DNA of 38,434 nucleotides from Desulfobacteraceae bacterium (GCA_011389735.1 JAABTS010000041.1:1-38434), one strand, 5' to 3'; positions 10,211 through 37,077 are shown, counted from the first letter of the stretch. Notes: a model not told the origin generated them from the letters alone. Translations and numbers: made by a program.

Positions 10211-11476
10211 TCAGGGGATTTTTCGGAGTTCAAACGGTGAAAGAAGTTTCGTTGAATCAATGGAGGTGTTGTCCCCAAGATTGATCAGGAAAGAAGCCTC
10301 CACGGACGAATACATACCCTTAAATTGACGCAATCCTTTTAAATCCGATGGTGAAATTCCGGTTTTATATTTGATTTCAACAGGAATTTGAGTCCGGCCC
10401 CTGTCGATAATTACATCAACTTCATGCTGAGTCTTGGTCCTCCAGAATTTTATCGAATCCCGGTATTCCCCTTGCTTGATCAATTCCGAGATAACATATC
10501 CCTCAAACAAAAACGCTGCATCTTTCCGAATGGACATTGAATTGAAATTGTTTATAAAAAAATTCCTGACGCCGCTGTCCAGATAATAAACCTTGGGTTG
10601 CTTGACAATCTCCCTTTTTTTGTTGGTAAAGTAAGGCGTATGGATTGTTATCAAAAAGGTTTCCTGAAGAATCTCCAAATAATTCTTAGCGGTCTTTTCA
10701 TCTATCCCTGATGAGCTGGCGATAGAGCTATATTTTATTTCACACCCGTTATTCACTGAAAGGAGCTGAATCAGCGTCTTTGCACTTTTTAATTTCTCGA
10801 TGTTCAGATAATCTACAAGGTCTTTGGATACATACAAATCGAAAATGCTAGATAAAATTTCTCTTTTTTCCCTTTGTTCGGATAAAACGACTTCGGGATA
10901 CCCTCCGAAAATCATAAATTCTTCAAGCCTTTGATATGCTTCAGGAATTAGTTTATGTATTTCCCTGGAAGCAATCTCGGATATTTTTTCGAGCTTTTCA
11001 TTGAGTTCCGTTTCTCCTTTGAATAATAAAAATTCTGTAAAATTCAACGGATAGATACGTACCATCCGCTTTCTGCCCGCCAGACTTTCCTGCACTCTCC
11101 CGTTTATAACCAGTGATGACGATCCTGAAGCATAAATTTTGATGTTTTTATGATGGTCATACAAATTTTTCAAAACCAGGCTGATATCAGCATAGCGCTG
11201 GAATTCATCCAGAAAAAGATAAAACATTCCGGAATTTTCCTGCGTATAACCGTTGATCGTCAGTGTTCCGATCATTTTTTCATAGGTGCTGACTTTTTCG
11301 TAGTTCGAAAAAATGTCGAGATCCAGAAAAAGGCATTTTCCTTTTCCGCTCAAATCTTTGCAGAGTTTTTTCATTAAGGTGGTCTTCCCCACCTGCCGGG
11401 CGCCCGTCAGAATCGTTATTTTGTTTGATTCGCTTTGAGCCATAAGCTCCGGAAACACTTGCCGGTCAATATACAT
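10211..11476 (-). CDS. AAA family ATPase with DUF4143-like C-terminus
   Basis: A 421-residue cytoplasmic ATPase. The P-loop GARQVGKT is at residues 25-32, followed by LFLDLDIFSN, a Walker B in YLFLDEFQRY and a sensor-like IYASGSSSL. The C-terminal third, with FLFEGYVISELIKQG and FWRTKTQHEVDVIIDRG...PVEIKYK, is the DUF4143 domain, which resembles a PD-(D/E)XK nuclease core (E, D-x-I, E-x-K). Such proteins are very common and their role is unproven. A longer frame begins at 11515, but GGAGG four bases before the ATG at 11476 and the family's usual MYIDRQ-like beginning favour 11476. No partner gene is adjacent. Confidence 0.85.
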   Translation of the reverse strand: MYIDRQVFPELMAQSESNKITILTGARQVGKTTLMKKLCKDLSGKGKCLFLDLDIFSNYEKVSTYEKMIGTLTINGYTQENSGMFYLFLDEFQRYADISLVLKNLYDHHKNIKIYASGSSSLVINGRVQESLAGRKRMVRIYPLNFTEFLLFKGETELNEKLEKISEIASREIHKLIPEAYQRLEEFMIFGGYPEVVLSEQREKREILSSIFDLYVSKDLVDYLNIEKLKSAKTLIQLLSVNNGCEIKYSSIASSSGIDEKTAKNYLEILQETFLITIHTPYFTNKKREIVKQPKVYYLDSGVRNFFINNFNSMSIRKDAAFLFEGYVISELIKQGEYRDSIKFWRTKTQHEVDVIIDRGRTQIPVEIKYKTGISPSDLKGLRQFKGMYSSVEASFLINLGDNTSIDSTKLLSPFELRKIP

Positions 11477-11641
11477 GCGGCCTCCAAACCAAAGCAGGCT
11501 TTGCCCGCATCCCATGCGGTAGGGCGGGGTTTAATCGATAAAGCGCTAAAACAGAATCATATTCCGGAATAGTTTAAACTTTTCCGGACGCTATGTCAAG
11601 AATGGTAATAATTGAAATCGAAATAGCTTTTCATATAATTA

Positions 11642-18852: not shown

Positions 18853-19284
18853 CGCCTTATCGCTTACCACCCAACTGAATTGAAATTTTATCTTGTAAAG
18901 AAATCCTCAAAATCTTCAATGTATTCTTGGAGCTTGGTTCTATCTTCGGCCATTTTCATTTATCGGGATCCTGATCCTGATTTGGATTCAAAAACTTCAA
19001 GCCCAATCACTAAACTGACGGCCGAAGTTAGAACCAATCCCGTATTCTTGCGGTTAAAATTTCGTCCTTACCTTGAACTCGAAAAAACATTTAGTTTAGT
19101 TCAGCCGCTGATTACCGGGAAAAAGGAAATGAACAATCAGGTAAAGTGTTGAACATTTCCCTGAAACAGACAAAATCAACATTGAAAAAAAACCGGCTAA
19201 AATAAGATATTTCTGTTTTCCGGTTGCATCCATACCGACGAGCGCCATGGCGAAGAAAAAAATCATTTGAAACAGGAGACGCCA
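18853..19284. other. gap with a 16-base interrupted inverted repeat
   Basis: No gene is supported. GGTTCTATCTTCGGCC (18936-18951) faces GGCCGAAGTTAGAACC (19020-19035), one mismatch, with a 68-base spacer containing GGGATCCTGATCCTGAT, itself reminiscent of the hexamer core of family A. It could be a MITE remnant or hairpin. GGAG at about 19274 serves the next gene. Confidence 0.5.
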
Positions 19285-21090
19285 ATGAAATTTCCATACG
19301 GCATATGCGATTTTGCAAAAATAAGAACCCAGGGGCATTTTTATTGCGACCGTACAGGCCTCATACCTCAACTTGAACTTGGGGAGTTCTTGCTGTTCAT
19401 CCGCCCGAGGCGGTTCGGCAAAAGCCTTTTGCTGTCGATGCTGTACAATTATTATGATGTGGCGAAGGCCGGCGAATTCGACATGATGTTCGGCGGTCTT
19501 GAAATCGGTAAACATCCGACGCCTTTGCACAATCAATATTTTGTGCTGCAATGGGATTTTTCCTGTGTGGATTCTTTTGGAGAAGTTCATGAAATCAAGC
19601 GGGCGCTGCATGACCATATCAACGCTCAGATAAATCATTTCAAGGTTTATTACAGGCGTTTTTTAAAAATGAACATTGAAATAGATCCGCAAAACGCCAT
19701 CACCAGCATCCAATGCCTGATAACGGCTGCCCAGATGACCGGCTATCCAGTGTACCTGCTCATCGATGAATACGACAATTTCGCCAATGAGATCATGATG
19801 GGCGTACATAGGGATAAACAACGAAAATACGAGGCCCTGGTTTATGAAGAGGGACCGTTGCGGACACTGTTCAAGGCCATCAAATCGGCCGCCGGCCGGT
19901 CCCTGTTCGACCGGATTTTCATCACCGGCGTTTCCCCGGTGGTTATGAGCGATATCACCAGCGGATACAATATCGCCAAAAATATTTATCTTAAACCTGA
20001 ATTCAATACTCTTTGCGGTTTCACCGCCGATGAGATCCGTAACGCAGTGGAAACAGCAGGCCGGGAATGCGGTTTTGACGAGGAACGCACCCTCGAAGCT
20101 CTGAATATGATGCGTACATGGTACAATGGTTACAAATTTTCGTCCGGCGCCTCGAAACCGGTCTACAATCCCACGTTGACCCTCTACTTTCTGGATGAAT
20201 TGCAGGAAACCTGTCAATATCCCAGAAAAATGCTGGACACCAATCTGGCCATGGACGCCGGCAAGCTGGAATATATCGCGCAACTCCCGAAAGGCGGCCA
20301 GTTGCTGTTGAATCTCATGCGGGAAGACCGCCGCGTGTTGATCGATGAACCGGCCGACCGGTTCGGAATCCGGGAGATGTTGTCGGATCAAAGCAAGAAC
20401 CATGTGTTTATGGTCTCATTTCTTTATTATTTCGGCGTCCTTACGATCGCCGAAGTGATTGAAACCGGCGAACTGGCGCTGACGGTTCCCAACCTGGTAA
20501 TCAAAAAGCTGTATGTGGAAAAAATTCAGACCATGCTGCTCCCGGAACCGGGGGACCAGGACGACGGCGCCAACGCCGCTAAAGCCCTTTATCAGAAAGG
20601 CGACATGGGCCCCTTGTGCGAATTCGTCGAACAGCGCTATTTCAAGGTGTTTCACAACCCCGATTACCGATGGGCCAATGAATTGACCGTAAAAACGGCC
20701 TTTTTGACTCTGCTGTACAACGACATCCTGTATGTCATGGATTCCGAAAGCGAAATCGACCGGCGCTACGCCGACCTCACCATGATTATCCGCCCGGATA
20801 TGCGGAAATACAAGATCCTGGACATTCTGATCGAATTCAAATTCGTTACATTGAAAGAAGCCGGATTGACCGGAGAACAGGCCCGGAATCTGACGGACGA
20901 GAAACTGGCCGCTCTGCCGCCGATGATCCGTGAGATGGAAGAGGCCCAAAAGCAGGTCGCCGAATACGGCCGCGCTCTGGAAAAACGGCATGGAAATCTG
21001 CGGCTTCGCAAATACTCAGTGGTTTCTCTCGGTTTTGAACGGATCTGGTGGAAGGAAACCGGCGATAAACGATTCGATATAAACACTTGA
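19285..21090 (+). CDS. AAA-ATPase-like protein with C-terminal PD-(D/E)XK nuclease domain
   Basis: A 601-residue protein. The N-terminal AAA-ATPase-like region begins MKFPYGICDFAKI; the nucleotide-binding loop is RPRRFGKSLLLSML (about residues 41-54), and a Walker B lies in LLIDEYDNFANEI. The C-terminal domain (about 510-600) has the PD-(D/E)XK_9 signature DILIEFKFV with a preceding conserved Glu/Asp region. Members occur in very many copies in Desulfonema, Bacteroidetes and clostridia and may be selfish or defence-related; function is unproven. The start at 19285 is supported by GGAG; a TTG at 19267 is less likely. It is flanked by repeats on both sides, which fits a mobile history. Confidence 0.85.
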   Translation: MKFPYGICDFAKIRTQGHFYCDRTGLIPQLELGEFLLFIRPRRFGKSLLLSMLYNYYDVAKAGEFDMMFGGLEIGKHPTPLHNQYFVLQWDFSCVDSFGEVHEIKRALHDHINAQINHFKVYYRRFLKMNIEIDPQNAITSIQCLITAAQMTGYPVYLLIDEYDNFANEIMMGVHRDKQRKYEALVYEEGPLRTLFKAIKSAAGRSLFDRIFITGVSPVVMSDITSGYNIAKNIYLKPEFNTLCGFTADEIRNAVETAGRECGFDEERTLEALNMMRTWYNGYKFSSGASKPVYNPTLTLYFLDELQETCQYPRKMLDTNLAMDAGKLEYIAQLPKGGQLLLNLMREDRRVLIDEPADRFGIREMLSDQSKNHVFMVSFLYYFGVLTIAEVIETGELALTVPNLVIKKLYVEKIQTMLLPEPGDQDDGANAAKALYQKGDMGPLCEFVEQRYFKVFHNPDYRWANELTVKTAFLTLLYNDILYVMDSESEIDRRYADLTMIIRPDMRKYKILDILIEFKFVTLKEAGLTGEQARNLTDEKLAALPPMIREMEEAQKQVAEYGRALEKRHGNLRLRKYSVVSLGFERIWWKETGDKRFDINT

Positions 21091-31103: not shown

Positions 31104-31425
31104 AGCGCTGCCGTTGACAGGCGGTAAGAAGTATCCGGACCGCATCCATGGATATGATACGTTCCTGTGTTTTCAGCGCGGGAACGTATCCGCGTCCCGT
31201 TGAATCTTTGTATTGAAGATTAAACGGGGACAACAAATCCTTCCACATTTCTTCATAAGGGGTTGTATCGGCGGTTCTTTTTTATTTCACGCTCACGTTT
31301 TTGAATTTTTCGCGTCCATCCTGTAATTCGTCGAATACGATCATCCCGGCCCAAAAAATGATATTTATTGACCTGAAAACCAGGTCATGATATCTATAAA
31401 AGATGACCTTAACAGGGAGGATGAA
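31104..31425. other. intergenic region with hairpin 31156-31190
   Basis: Holds a perfect 10-bp hairpin, GATACGTTCC (31156-31165) with GGAACGTATC (31181-31190), no U-run after it. It may weakly terminate the CO dehydrogenase operon. The last part (31369-31387) is the palindrome of the toxin-antitoxin promoter. No open frame is credible. Confidence 0.4.
31369..31387. promoter_or_regulatory. palindrome upstream of the antitoxin gene, probable operator
   Basis: TGACCTG - AAAAC - CAGGTCA is a perfect 7-base inverted repeat about 39 bases before the antitoxin start. Phd-type antitoxins repress their own operon by binding such dyads, so this is the natural operator candidate. Seen: the dyad; inferred: the function. 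Confidence 0.55.
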
Positions 31426-31719
31426 ATGGATAAATGGAATATTTCGACAGCAAAGGCGAAATTTGCGAAATTGATACTGTCGAGTGAAAAAGAACCACAA
31501 ATTATTTGTAACCGGGGGAAACCGGTCGGCGCGGTTGTTCAAATCGGCCTTTTCAGGGAATTGATGGCGTTAAAGGAAACAATGGAGAAACCGACAATCG
31601 CCCAATTACTGGACGAGTTGAAAACTATCCGCAAATCCGAGCCCATCGATATAGAAATCCCCGACCGGCGAAATCGGCGAAATCCATTTGAGGGGGATAC
31701 CGATGAAATGGCTCTGTGA
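31426..31719 (+). CDS. Phd/YefM-type antitoxin
   Basis: A 97-residue protein. The N-terminal half (MDKWNISTAKAKFAKLI...PQIICNRGKPVGAVVQIG) is the Phd/YefM DNA-binding and dimerisation fold; the C-terminal part is charged and presumably disordered until it binds the toxin. GGAGG five bases before ATG 31426 sets the start. The 3' end overlaps the PIN-domain toxin gene by 17 bases, the usual translational coupling of such pairs. It probably represses the pair from the palindrome at 31369-31387. Confidence 0.87.
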   Translation: MDKWNISTAKAKFAKLILSSEKEPQIICNRGKPVGAVVQIGLFRELMALKETMEKPTIAQLLDELKTIRKSEPIDIEIPDRRNRRNPFEGDTDEMAL

Positions 31720-32098
31720 CACGAATGTGATCAGTGAATTTTTTAAGAAACAACCAAACTCGAAGGCGATGACCTGGATTTCCGCTTGCAATGATATTTT
31801 TCTGAGTGTCATTACGGTGGAAGAAATTTATTGCGGCCTTTATCATAAAGAGGCGTTGAAACAGATGGCGTGGTTGGACAAATTTCTTCAATTGCATTGT
31901 CATATTATCCCGGTTACGGAATCCATTGCGAAGCAATGCGGCGATTTGCGAGGCCGATTCATTGGGAAAGGAATTGTTCGATCTCAGGCGGATATGCTGA
32001 TTGCGGCTACAGCGCTCAGGCATCAATTGACGCTGGTTACGCGGAATGAACGTGATTTTCGAAAATGCGGCGTTCCTGTTCTCAATCCTTTTCTATAG
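31703..32098 (+). CDS. PIN-domain toxin (VapC family)
   Basis: A 131-residue PIN-domain ribonuclease. Acidic active-site residues are visible: D in MKWLCDTNVISE, E in TVEEIYCGLY, D in QADMLIAATA, and an acidic D in RNERDF near the C-terminus. VapC toxins cleave tRNA or rRNA. The start at 31703 has GGGGG-type ribosome binding (AGGGGGATACC) and lies inside the antitoxin's last codons; a TTG at 31688 is less likely. The pair is bracketed by a 12-base direct repeat (31113-31124 and 32332-32343). Confidence 0.9.
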   Translation: MKWLCDTNVISEFFKKQPNSKAMTWISACNDIFLSVITVEEIYCGLYHKEALKQMAWLDKFLQLHCHIIPVTESIAKQCGDLRGRFIGKGIVRSQADMLIAATALRHQLTLVTRNERDFRKCGVPVLNPFL

Positions 32099-32375: not shown

Positions 32376-35231
32376 ATGACACCCATCGGGATATTGCAGG
32401 AAAAATTCGGTTATGACCGGTTTCGGGAATATCAGGAAGAAATTATACAGAGGTTGCTGTCCGGCGGCGATGCGTTTGTGTTGATGCCCACCGGGGGCGG
32501 GAAATCGATTTGTTATCAAATTCCGTCGATGTTGAGGCCGGGTGTGGGCCTGGTGGTTTCTCCGTTGATCGCGTTGATGCAGGATCAGGTGGACGCCTTG
32601 AATCAGGCGGGGGTACGGGCTGCGTTCATCAATTCGAGCCTTAGCCGGGAACAGGCGTGGAATGCCGGCGAACGGATGATCAGAGGCGATGTCGATTTAA
32701 TGTATGTCGCTCCTGAACGTTTGTTGACCACGAGTTTCCAGCGTTTGCTGCATCAGGCCGATATCGCGCTGTTCGCTATCGATGAAGCCCATTGCGTATC
32801 CCAGTGGGGGCACGATTTCCGGCCGGAATATCTTCAGCTTACGTTCGTGTTCGACCAGTTTCCGAATGTCCCCAAAGTCGCGTTGACCGCCACAGCCGAT
32901 GATATCACCCGCCGGGAAATTATCAGCAAGCTCAAACTTTCCGGAGCGGAATCCTATATTGCGAGCTTTAACCGGCCCAATATCCGCTATCTGGTGGATT
33001 TGAAACGCAATCCCAAAAAGCAGATAATGGATTTTTTAAAACTCCATCCCGGCGAATCCGGCATCATGTACTGTCAAACCCGAAAAAAAACCGATGACAC
33101 CGCTCGATGGCTGGCTGATTCCGGATACGCCGCGCTTCCTTATCACGCGGGCCTGGATGCGGAAACGCGCCTGCGCCATCAGCAGCGGTTTTTACGCGAG
33201 GACGGAATTATTATCGTGGCCACGATCGCATTCGGCATGGGGATCGACAAGCCGGATGTCCGGTTTGTGGCTCATCTGGACATGCCTAAAAGCATGGAAG
33301 CCTATTATCAGGAAACCGGGCGCGCCGGCCGGGACGGCCTGCCCGCGGACGCCTGGATGATCTACAGCCTCGGCGATATTGTCCGGCTGAGGCATTTAAT
33401 CGACCAGACCGGCGGAAATCCCGAAATAAAACAGGCCGCTCAACGCAAGATCGAATCGATGCTCGGATACTGCGAAACAGCGATTTGCCGGCGCAAAATT
33501 CTCCTTCGCTATTTTGGGGAGGAATTGACCGGCCCGTGCGGCGGTTGCGACACCTGCGAAGGCGAAGTCGACACCTGGGACGGGTCGGTCGCGGCTCAAA
33601 AAGCCCTTTCCTGCGTGTATCGCACCGGGCAGATGTTCGGCGCCGATTATCTCGCCGACGTTCTGACCGGGGCGCAAACCGAACGTATCCGACAATTCAA
33701 CCATGACCGGATATCAACGTTCGGAGTCGGCGCGGAATTGTCAAAAACGGAATGGAAATCCGTATATCGCCAGTTGCTGGCCGCCGGTTTTCTTCAGGTC
33801 GATATGAACAACAAAGGCGGTTTCCGTCTGGCTCCGGAAAGCAGGCCGGTGCTAAAGGGCGAACAAGGGGTCATGCTGCGCCGTGATACGGCGTCAAGCG
33901 TTAAAAAGACGCCGGCGAATAAGGCTCTGTATCTCGACGATTACCGGCGTGGCTTGTGGGAAGAATTACGCGCCTGGCGAGCCGCTGTCGCCGAAGAAAT
34001 GAACACGCCCGCTTTCGTGGTGTTTCATGACCGCACACTGTATGAGATCGTCCGGAAAACGCCCCGGTCGGCCGGTGAACTTGGACGCATATCCGGAATC
34101 GGGGAAACGAAGCTGGAACGTTTCGGAGAGCGCCTGGTCCGCCTGATCCGTACACATATTGAAACCCACGGCGAACCGCCGCCCCCGCCCCCCGAGCCGC
34201 CGGGTATCGAAATCGATGCGCCCCGGCGGGACGAATGCGGCCCGACAGTGCTTGAAACCCTGTCCCTGCTCAAATCCGGTAAAAGCCCCGAAACTATCGC
34301 CGCCTTTCGAGAATTGAAGATCAGCACGATTTATGAGCACTGCGCCAGAGCCATCGCCTCCGGAATATTGGATCTGAGCGTCGTGGTGGATCTGCCGGAC
34401 GCTGAAATCCGGGAAATTGAAAGGGCTTTTGAAGCCATGCCGGATGCAAAACCCCTGAAACCGGTGTATGAACAATTTGATGGAAGATACGATTACGAGA
34501 CATTAAAGTGTATTCGCGCCGGATTAGTGAATCAAACCTCGAAAAAAGCCTCTGAATTCAAAGTCAGGCGCATTGTTTGCCTGGCGGCGTCCAGAAAATT
34601 CGCCGGTTACTGCGTGGCCGGCAAGGAACTGGAGGGCGGCGGAATCGGCGGATGGATCAGGCCCGTGAGCGACGCCGACACCGGAGAACTCAATTATCAG
34701 GATATCCGATATAAAGGCGGAGATGTTCCGGCGCTGCTAGATATCGTCGAAATCAGAACGGGCGGTCTGAAACCGCACGGATATCAGAAAGAGAATTCCA
34801 GAGTGCAAGCCGGATCCGAATGGATCAAGCGGGGAGTATACCGGATAGAGGATGTCGATCGCTTATGTGACGGCCCCAATGATCTATGGGGAACGGGATA
34901 TCACGGCCAATACGGATTGAATGACCGGCTTCCCGCGGATGAAGCCGGATCGATTCAGTCGTCGCTGTTGTTCACCGCCGTGCAAGCTCCCGTCGTCCAT
35001 GTGGCCGTCGAATCGAACAACCGGAAAAAAATCCGCCTGTCGTTCTCCTATAAGGGCGAAAACTACCGGATGATCGTTACCGATCCAATGATCGAACGAG
35101 CTTATCTGAAACGAGAGCCCGGAAAGTATCCTCTTGATTGTGAAAACCTGTTTGTCTGCCTGAGCCTCGGGGAGATTTACCAGGGAAACTGCTATAAACT
35201 GGTCGCCGGAATTCCTGGAATCGATATATGA
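32376..35231 (+). CDS. RecQ-family DNA helicase with long C-terminal extension
   Basis: A 951-residue superfamily 2 helicase. The RecQ core has the Walker A PTGGGKS (38-44), DEAH (136-139) with [21 protein letters not shown] and [10 protein letters not shown]. The zinc site is complete (C371, C388, C391, C394, spaced 16-2-2 as in E. coli RecQ). A winged-helix region follows, then an HRDC-like domain at about 530-610 ([20 protein letters not shown]), a Pro-rich linker ([10 protein letters not shown]) and a HTH-like segment. Residues about 729-950 are a further domain ([39 protein letters not shown]) resembling, from memory, a dual OB-fold. Two DUF488 genes are coupled downstream, so a shared DNA-processing or defence role is likely. 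The ribosome-binding site is weak. Confidence 0.9.
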
Positions 35232-35806
35232 ATGATTTATTGACCATCGGCCATTCCACCCATTCAACGGAGAAGCTTATCGCAATGCTCCAGACACATG
35301 AGGTCAGAGCGGTCGCGGATGTCCGGTCAAGTCCGTACAGCCGGTACAATCCGCAATTCAACAGGGAGTTGCTGAAAAAAGATTTGTTGGACCACCGGAT
35401 AGTCTACGTGTTTCTCGGACGGGAACTGGGGCCCCGGCGAGAGGAACCCTATTGCTATGTGGACGGCAAAGTGCGGTATGATCGGATTGCGGAGACGGAT
35501 CTGTTCAAACAGGGCCTGGAACGTTTGAAAACCGGGCTTGAATCCTACCGGATCGCGCTGCTGTGTTCCGAAAAAGATCCCATAGTCTGTCATCGAATGA
35601 TACTGATCTGCCGCCATCTGCGGAAGGAATCTTTTTCCGTCGCGCATATTCTCGAAGACGGAGAACCGGAGCCCCTGCTCAACGCGGAAGAACGGCTCCT
35701 GGCGGCCCTGAAAATTCCGAAGCAAGATCTGTTCAATGATTTTGACGCCCAGGTGCAGCGGGCGTATGACATCCAAAGCGAAAAAATCGCCCACACCATC
35801 AAATGA
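35228..35806 (+). CDS. DUF488 family protein, first copy
   Basis: A 192-residue soluble protein. It has the DUF488 pattern: [17 protein letters not shown] at the N-terminus, [15 protein letters not shown], and the late conserved [13 protein letters not shown] (C113, C121, H122, R123). The CSE..P..CHR motif looks like a metal or nucleotide pocket; biochemistry is not established to my knowledge. It begins with ATGA overlapping the recQ stop, and its own stop overlaps the next gene in the same way, so the three are one translationally coupled operon. Its role is probably tied to RecQ or nucleic acid. Confidence 0.87.
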
Positions 35807-36252
35807 AGGAAACACCGTCGATGAAATTATATACGATCGGATTCACTAAAAAACCGGCGCGCCGCTTTTTCGAATTGCTCTCCGGCGCCGGCGTTAAACG
35901 AGTCGTGGATGTGCGCCTGAACAATTCGTCTCAACTGGCCGGTTTCGCCAAACGGGACGACCTGAGCTATTTTCTGGAGGCGGTCGCCGGAATCGGCTAT
36001 ATCCATTTGCCGGAACTCGCCCCCACTCCGGACATCATCAACGAATACAAAAAAAACAAAGGGTCATGGGAAGCATATGAAAAAAAATACCTGGCGTTGA
36101 TCAAAAGCCTTGATATTATTGAACTCACCGAAAAATTTCGATCCGGCGATTGTCTGCTGTGCAGCGAGGAAACGGCCGACCGATGCCATCGCCGGTTGTT
36201 GGGCGACTATTTGCAGCAAAAAATCAAAGGGCTGGAATTGTATCATTTGTAA
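35803..36252 (+). CDS. DUF488 family protein, second copy
   Basis: A 149-residue protein, shorter than the first copy and clearly diverged. It has LYTIGFTKKPARRFFELL, DVRLNNSSQLAGFAKRDDL, and LLCSEETADRCHR (C120, C128, H129, R130). The proline present in the first copy's CSExxPxxCHR is absent here, but both cysteines, the His and the Arg are kept. ATGA overlaps the stop of the first DUF488 gene. A start at 35821 would remove six residues. Two different DUF488 proteins side by side suggests a heterodimer. Confidence 0.87.
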   Translation: MKETPSMKLYTIGFTKKPARRFFELLSGAGVKRVVDVRLNNSSQLAGFAKRDDLSYFLEAVAGIGYIHLPELAPTPDIINEYKKNKGSWEAYEKKYLALIKSLDIIELTEKFRSGDCLLCSEETADRCHRRLLGDYLQQKIKGLELYHL

Positions 36253-36294
36253 ATGAAAGCATTCCACTCAAACAAGAAAGGAAGGTTCAAATTT

Positions 36295-37077
36295 ATGGAA
36301 ATTGGAAAACAGGTGATTGACATCGCAATGGAAAACGGAGCGGATATGGCGGGAATCGCAAACATGGAGGCGCTGAGAGCGTCTCCTTCGCACGTCGTAT
36401 ACCCGCAAATGGAAGATTATAAAGGCGTCGGAACCGTCAAGGAAGGCGACATTCTTCCGAAGTCCCAATTTTTCAACTGGCCGGAATCGGTAAAATCAGT
36501 ACTCGTGATCGGTCTTTCACATCCAAAGGACAGACCCGAGCTGGACTGGTGGGATGGGCGCGGGACGCCCGGCAACCGGATGCTGATCGATATCATGAAG
36601 AAAAACAGGGAGAGAATCGAAAACGATCTGAAACTGGTTACGCATCCCCTTCATTACTATGTCGAAAAGGGCGGCGTTTTTCTTAAAGATGCGGCGGTGC
36701 TGGCCGGATTCGGGTGTATCGGGAAAAACAATATGCTGGTGACGCCGGATTACGGCCCCAGAATCCGCCTCAGAGCCCTGTTTATAGACGACGAGATCCC
36801 CCCGGACGGGCCATCCGGATTTGATCCCTGTGAGGATTGTAAAGTCTATTGCCGGAAAGTCTGCCCGGAAAAGGCCATGTCCGCGAAAGCGCCGGTGTTT
36901 GAAACCATCGGCGCCCCGGTGGAAATTCCCGCCAGAGATGGTTTCTATGCAAGAAATATGTGCAATGATAGAATGGAAAAAGATATCGCCGAAAGCAAAG
37001 CAGGCGGTTCCGAAACTCAGGGCCCGGTAAAGTATTGCCGGAAGTGCGAATTCGTTTGTCCCGCGGGCAAAGGTTAA
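36295..37077 (+). CDS. QueG-like iron-sulfur protein
   Basis: A 260-residue cytoplasmic protein related to epoxyqueuosine reductase-type and reductive dehalogenase-type cobalamin/iron-sulfur proteins. The middle (AAVLAGFGCIGKNNMLVTPDYGPRIRLRALF) is the characteristic QueG-like segment. Two cysteine groups follow: DPCEDCKVYCRKVCPEKAM and YCRKCEFVCPAG at the C-terminus. The second is short, so the second cluster may be incomplete. Whether it makes queuosine is doubtful: QueG is longer and this group is diverse. AGGAAGG precedes ATG 36295. It is 42 bases after the DUF488 pair, so a shared transcript is possible. The stop is followed directly by a repeat-B remnant. Confidence 0.82.
   Translation: MEIGKQVIDIAMENGADMAGIANMEALRASPSHVVYPQMEDYKGVGTVKEGDILPKSQFFNWPESVKSVLVIGLSHPKDRPELDWWDGRGTPGNRMLIDIMKKNRERIENDLKLVTHPLHYYVEKGGVFLKDAAVLAGFGCIGKNNMLVTPDYGPRIRLRALFIDDEIPPDGPSGFDPCEDCKVYCRKVCPEKAMSAKAPVFETIGAPVEIPARDGFYARNMCNDRMEKDIAESKAGGSETQGPVKYCRKCEFVCPAGKG

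Follow-up and report, generated by a model that had tools for sequence, protein, structure and literature searches.

Systems catalogued under the PDC designation were proposed by a guilt-by-embedding screen, and most of them are unvalidated (PMC12988326). For one of them, PDC-M45, no report of a phage-challenge test was found in the literature searched, and searches for DUF488 in connection with RecQ, DuOB or formaldehyde returned nothing relevant. To our knowledge, DUF488 is a large family without demonstrated activity. Burroughs and Aravind (2023) are said to have predicted DNA-end processing in conflict systems for the DUF488 clade of the rhodanese-phosphatase superfamily.

We analysed a 38,434-nucleotide stretch of DNA from a Desulfobacteraceae bacterium, referred to in full as the window, in which contiguous recQ, DUF488a and DUF488b genes form an operon at positions 32376-36252. 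The three parts of the operon match the PADLOC models PDC-M45A (RecQ residues 730-946, E = 2.1e-65), PDC-M45B (DUF488a, E = 4.2e-75 over 188 of 192 aa) and PDC-M45C (DUF488b, E = 3.2e-58), and the module is therefore not new: judged by these profile matches, DuOB, DUF488a and DUF488b together constitute the already catalogued candidate defence system PDC-M45, of which the window operon is a genuine and intact RecQ-fused variant. The initial annotation had raised an anti-phage role for the operon; the matches to a candidate defence system are in line with this suggestion, but the candidate status itself had already been catalogued.

The first gene (32376-35231, plus strand) encodes a 951-residue protein with Pfam matches to DEAD, Helicase_C, RecQ_Zn_bind, RQC, HRDC, HTH_40 and DuOB, and scores 784.7 bits against the TIGR01389 equivalog cut-off of 640.2. 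Its RecQ core, from the DEAD to the HRDC domain (residues 18-591; 32427-34148), groups with the unfused RecQs of the phylum and is followed by HTH_40 (residues 624-713; 34245-34514; PF14493, E = 5e-20), a domain also present in the fused RecQs of L102 and L107, and by DuOB (residues 732-946; 34569-35213). A profile search of the source genome found no second RecQ above the cut-off and no other DUF488. The window RecQ also gave strong matches to PADLOC DpdF models, which span a whole RecQ; identity with DpdF, the helicase of the Dpd DNA-modification system, was rejected on the NCBIfam score (178 bits versus a cut-off of 550).

From the sequence alone, the C-terminal extension of the helicase had been said to resemble a dual OB-fold domain. 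This was borne out by the Pfam match to PF22557 (E = 7e-59) and by an AlphaFold2 model with tandem-OB Foldseek matches. The model is mostly β (pLDDT 94.9) and indicates that DuOB consists of two consecutive OB-like barrels. Its best Foldseek matches were the tandem-OB domains of HIN-200 proteins (E ~1e-4), and it also resembles the OB folds of BRCA2, telomere-end proteins, RPA and SSB (Z about 7).

The downstream genes, DUF488a (35228-35806) and DUF488b (35803-36252), both on the plus strand, encode putative rhodanese/PTP-like cysteine enzymes. As originally assigned, both are DUF488 proteins with retained motifs: they match PF04343 (E = 2e-25 and 1e-23, respectively), DUF488b additionally matches PF22751 (DUF488-N3a), and the C..E..CHR pattern is invariant in each. 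The invariant residues are C113, E115 and C121-H-R123 in DUF488a, and C114, S115, E116 and C122-H-R124 in DUF488b (47 sequences; numbering from 35821). The two ATGA overlaps noted between the genes (35228-35231 and 35803-35806) both exist in the sequence, but the second is perhaps not a real start. DUF488b has two in-frame ATGs within 35803-35823. Most homologues start at the position of the second, at 35821, and this ATG is preceded at a distance of 10 nt by AAGGA (35806-35810). The gene may therefore really begin at 35821, in which case the second coupling would be only apparent.

In the DUF488b model (pLDDT 90.5), C114 ends the strand 110-114 and R124 lies at the start of the helix 123-134. 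The conserved cysteine and arginine are placed around the last core strand and the next helix, with the classical CX5R spacing not kept. Matches to PTP-fold phosphatases reached Foldseek probabilities of 0.90-0.98, but with E > 0.01. The comparison with SsoPTP (VIA Z 8.0, rmsd 2.9, 106 aligned residues) was tied with tetrapyrrole-methylase folds, and matches at this level (Z about 8) are moderate, near the level of noise or common arrangements according to the tool's own note. Sequence searches for solved relatives of DUF488 gave none that was convincing, and RapZ was not among the matches.

The genes around the operon are metabolic (CO dehydrogenase, ferredoxin, oxidoreductase), and the locus lies outside any defence island. 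Only a Phd/YefM-type antitoxin gene (31387-31719; PF02604, E = 1.4e-8) and a PIN-domain toxin gene (31688-32098; PF01850, E = 2e-15), both on the plus strand and probably outside the system, stand upstream. This toxin-antitoxin pair, which had been taken as a hint of defence, is indeed present, but it is weak evidence in metabolic surroundings. Directly after DUF488b, an ORF at 36253-37077 with weak 4Fe-4S (Fer4) matches, its better start probably at 36298, is not part of the conserved module. Elsewhere in the window we noted an AAA_14/DUF4143 ATPase (10211-11515) and a PF09820 AAA-ATPase_like protein (19267-21090).

Across 395 genomes of the phylum, DuOB was found at 20 places in 18 genomes, and DUF488a and DUF488b adjoin it at 19 of them, the remaining place being cut by a contig end. 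A search with DUF488b alone yielded at least 557 confirmed relatives. Among the best 80 of these, examined for partners within 5 kb, 67 loci had both partners, five DUF488a only, one DuOB only and seven neither, some of the last at contig edges. Going by their record titles, the hosts among the DUF488b matches listed include Desulfobacterales, Acidobacteria, Planctomycetota, Verrucomicrobia, cyanobacteria, Streptomyces, Patescibacteria and a methanosarcinal archaeon. The genes are ordered DuOB-a-b or a-b-DuOB, and DuOB is at times fused to DUF488a, as in the natural fusion of L108. Since the combination of these three domains is seen again in many phyla, it is far beyond chance. The proposed link between the C-terminal domain and DUF488 therefore survived both the phylum survey and the DUF488b search, and no constant housekeeping neighbours were found. 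As side observations, G083 (L033 and L049) and G331 (L034 and L048) both contain a pair of clearly distinct triads, and two MAGs labelled Akkermansia muciniphila (L087, L112) carry a complete triad.

RecQ is a less regular member. Most triads have a stand-alone DuOB with no RecQ nearby, and RecQ occurs in 3 of 11 genomes with a stand-alone triad, compared with 130 of 390 genomes of the phylum overall, so that RecQ as an obligate partner was rejected. The link to DUF488 that had been inferred from gene coupling is supported as far as DuOB is concerned, which is tied to the DUF488 pair almost wherever this could be checked, but not for the helicase, which is not a constant member. Where RecQ is present, its arrangement varies. 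DuOB is C-terminal in the window, in four other genomes of the phylum and in L061, L081 (split), L102, L107 and L117, and N-terminal in G142 and G047, whose genes run DUF488a, DUF488b, DuOB-RecQ. Several other genomes also have the fusion as an open frame, and six of seven genomes with a fused RecQ have no other RecQ.

The joining of RecQ and DuOB happened at least twice, at the C-terminus in one clade and at the N-terminus in another. In the RecQ tree, the core of the window protein falls within a group of unfused RecQs (starred support), apart from eight other C-terminal fusions and the N-terminal pair, and a single origin of all C-terminal fusions including the window RecQ core was rejected (AU p 6.7e-8). 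In the triad tree, the window groups with C-fused triads in a 10-row clade (support 98/95). When regions were compared one by one, the helicase, RQC and HRDC regions matched unfused RecQs best, while within the compared set only fused proteins contained relatives of the window DuOB. Because the core and the triad group differently, the window gene is taken either as the product of a separate fusion involving a related triad or, with equal plausibility, as a hybrid in which the helicase core has been exchanged.

Elsewhere, triads frequently lie beside defence genes. Their neighbours include HmaB or HmaC (L051, L071, L047), IetAS with BrxL (L034), IetS (L122), PglX (L049), type I restriction subunits (L033, L039, L048) and Schlafen-AlbA_2 proteins (L078, L111), and on an Agrobacterium plasmid a triad lies near CBASS genes. 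In G385 (L036, 1412-9459), BrxL, an SMC-like (LmuB-like) ATPase, RecQ-DuOB, DUF488a and DUF488b follow in a row, with overlapping ATPase and RecQ frames. When randomly drawn flanking genes were scanned, 78 PADLOC models were matched at E <= 1e-40 among 100 triad-flanking genes and six among 100 control genes from other regions of the same genomes, a comparison that is indicative rather than a formal test because one gene can match several models and L049 alone supplies several BREX genes. The defence context first suggested for the operon therefore holds for a number of triads, which lie in islands of BREX, Hma, Iet or restriction genes; it does not hold for the window.

The triad is also mobile. 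DUF488b was found on 145 plasmid records and was absent from all 50,697 phage records searched. It also occurs on 34 IMG/VR contigs, 27 of which carry DuOB, DUF488b and either DUF4326 (18 contigs) or DUF488a (9 contigs). In the variant form, found on small plasmids and prophage-like contigs (L171, L172, L175, L180; L187, L190-L213), DuOB and DUF488b are accompanied by an mSLOG-DUF4326 protein. mSLOG was detected in both plasmid DUF4326 proteins tested, and neither of two DUF4326 genes tested matched a PADLOC model. On a Citrobacter plasmid of 4,167 bp, the DUF4326-type triad is nearly the only cargo. DUF488b also occurs by itself: in a Chloroflexota MAG (L068, 3165-9304), it has neither partner and lies at a distance of about 4 kb from an MrfA/HRQ1-type helicase.

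We propose, with about equal weight of confidence and doubt, that the operon represents the candidate anti-invader module PDC-M45 in a form armed with RecQ, and that it processes DNA ends. RecQ would unwind DNA in the 3'->5' direction and pass single strands or DNA ends to the tandem-OB domain, which in turn would present the ends to DUF488a and DUF488b. These putative cysteine enzymes could then act on a terminal phosphate or sugar, leaving an end that would be closed to replication, ligation and repair. Within islands, the ends might come from restriction or BREX machinery; with no nuclease nearby, as in the window, the fused helicase would instead supply single strands. We counted in favour of this anti-invader reading the PDC-M45 matches, the constancy of the triad, its defence neighbours and mobility, the OB and PTP fold matches and the joining to RecQ, and against it the metabolic setting of the window, the PTP matches near noise, the fused RecQ being usually the sole RecQ, and the occurrence of DUF488b beside UvrA.

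Some of these opposing points would fit a DNA-repair module, in which RecQ unwinds damaged DNA, the DuOB-DUF488 enzymes clean blocked or modified ends of the host chromosome, and islands carry the genes against collateral damage. We regard this explanation as possible, though doubtful. That the fused helicase is generally the only RecQ of its genome and that the window neighbourhood is not a defence island both favour it, as does the proximity of a repair helicase to the lone DUF488b of L068. Relatives of DUF488b (46-53% identity) moreover adjoin UvrA or UvrB on plasmids: a lone DUF488b lies between UvrA and frmR in a formaldehyde-detoxification cluster on the two enterobacterial plasmids that were read, and another beside UvrB on a Comamonas plasmid (L174, 6001-6432; L177, 5001-5432; L173, 6016-6447). 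Many other plasmid matches have the same identity to the query as the UvrA-linked ones, the surroundings having been read for these three plasmids. Against repair stand the patchy distribution of the triad in the phylum, its carriage by small plasmids and prophage-like contigs, its position within or next to Hma, BREX and restriction loci, and the two different DuOB loci found in each of G331 and G083. Some form of defence seems roughly twice as probable as repair.

A second alternative is that the substrates of DUF488a and DUF488b are soluble nucleotides, either NAD+/ADP-ribose derivatives or modified nucleotides, with DuOB sensing invading nucleic acid and RecQ only feeding the sensor. The exchange of DUF488a for mSLOG-DUF4326 in the plasmid and prophage versions speaks for it, as DUF4326 has been proposed to process ADP-ribose-linked phosphates (PMC9503650), and so does the resemblance of the DuOB model to HIN-200 DNA sensors. 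However, the RecQ fusions, the OB folds and the UvrA linkage point to enzymes acting on DNA itself, and homology between DUF4326 and DUF488 was not significant (hhalign probability 13.9 and 1.2); we consider this explanation improbable. That RecQ and the triad are chance neighbours and their fusion a neutral accident is highly improbable: most triads do lack RecQ, and stand-alone triads co-occur with RecQ no more than background, but the joining was repeated, at either end of RecQ in separate clades and in the window hybrid with a different RecQ core, and the joined frames stay open in several other genomes.

Taken together, the repeated RecQ-DuOB joining, the DUF4326 swap and the linkage to UvrA and formaldehyde genes narrow the likely substrate to DNA, especially its ends. 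More broadly, and tentatively, DuOB and DUF488b could form a portable DNA-end-modifying core with interchangeable partners: DUF488a or mSLOG-DUF4326 on the one hand, and on the other an optional RecQ captured repeatedly at either terminus, including with its core replaced by a native RecQ. Such a core would represent an undescribed immune or repair chemistry at DNA termini. PDC-M45 is a catalogued candidate, and the small three-gene cassette makes its DNA substrate testable.

In comparison with known systems, the locus is closest to PDC-M45, with which it shares DuOB, DUF488a and DUF488b as adjacent components of one operon; it differs in that DuOB is the C-terminal domain of a RecQ and that the locus lies outside a defence island. 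The DuOB + DUF488b + mSLOG-DUF4326 triads share two of these components, mSLOG-DUF4326 replacing DUF488a. The helicase has all domains of the RecQ family (TIGR01389) and scores above its equivalog cut-off, but adds about 360 residues past HRDC (HTH_40 and DuOB) and is coupled to two DUF488 genes. HIN-200 proteins (AIM2/IFI16 family) have tandem OB folds like DuOB, but at TM-scores of 0.3-0.4 and about 10% identity the architecture is shared with no sign of common descent. With the rhodanese-phosphatase clade that Burroughs and Aravind reportedly delineated, the operon has in common its DUF488 domains and the predicted processing of DNA ends in conflict systems.
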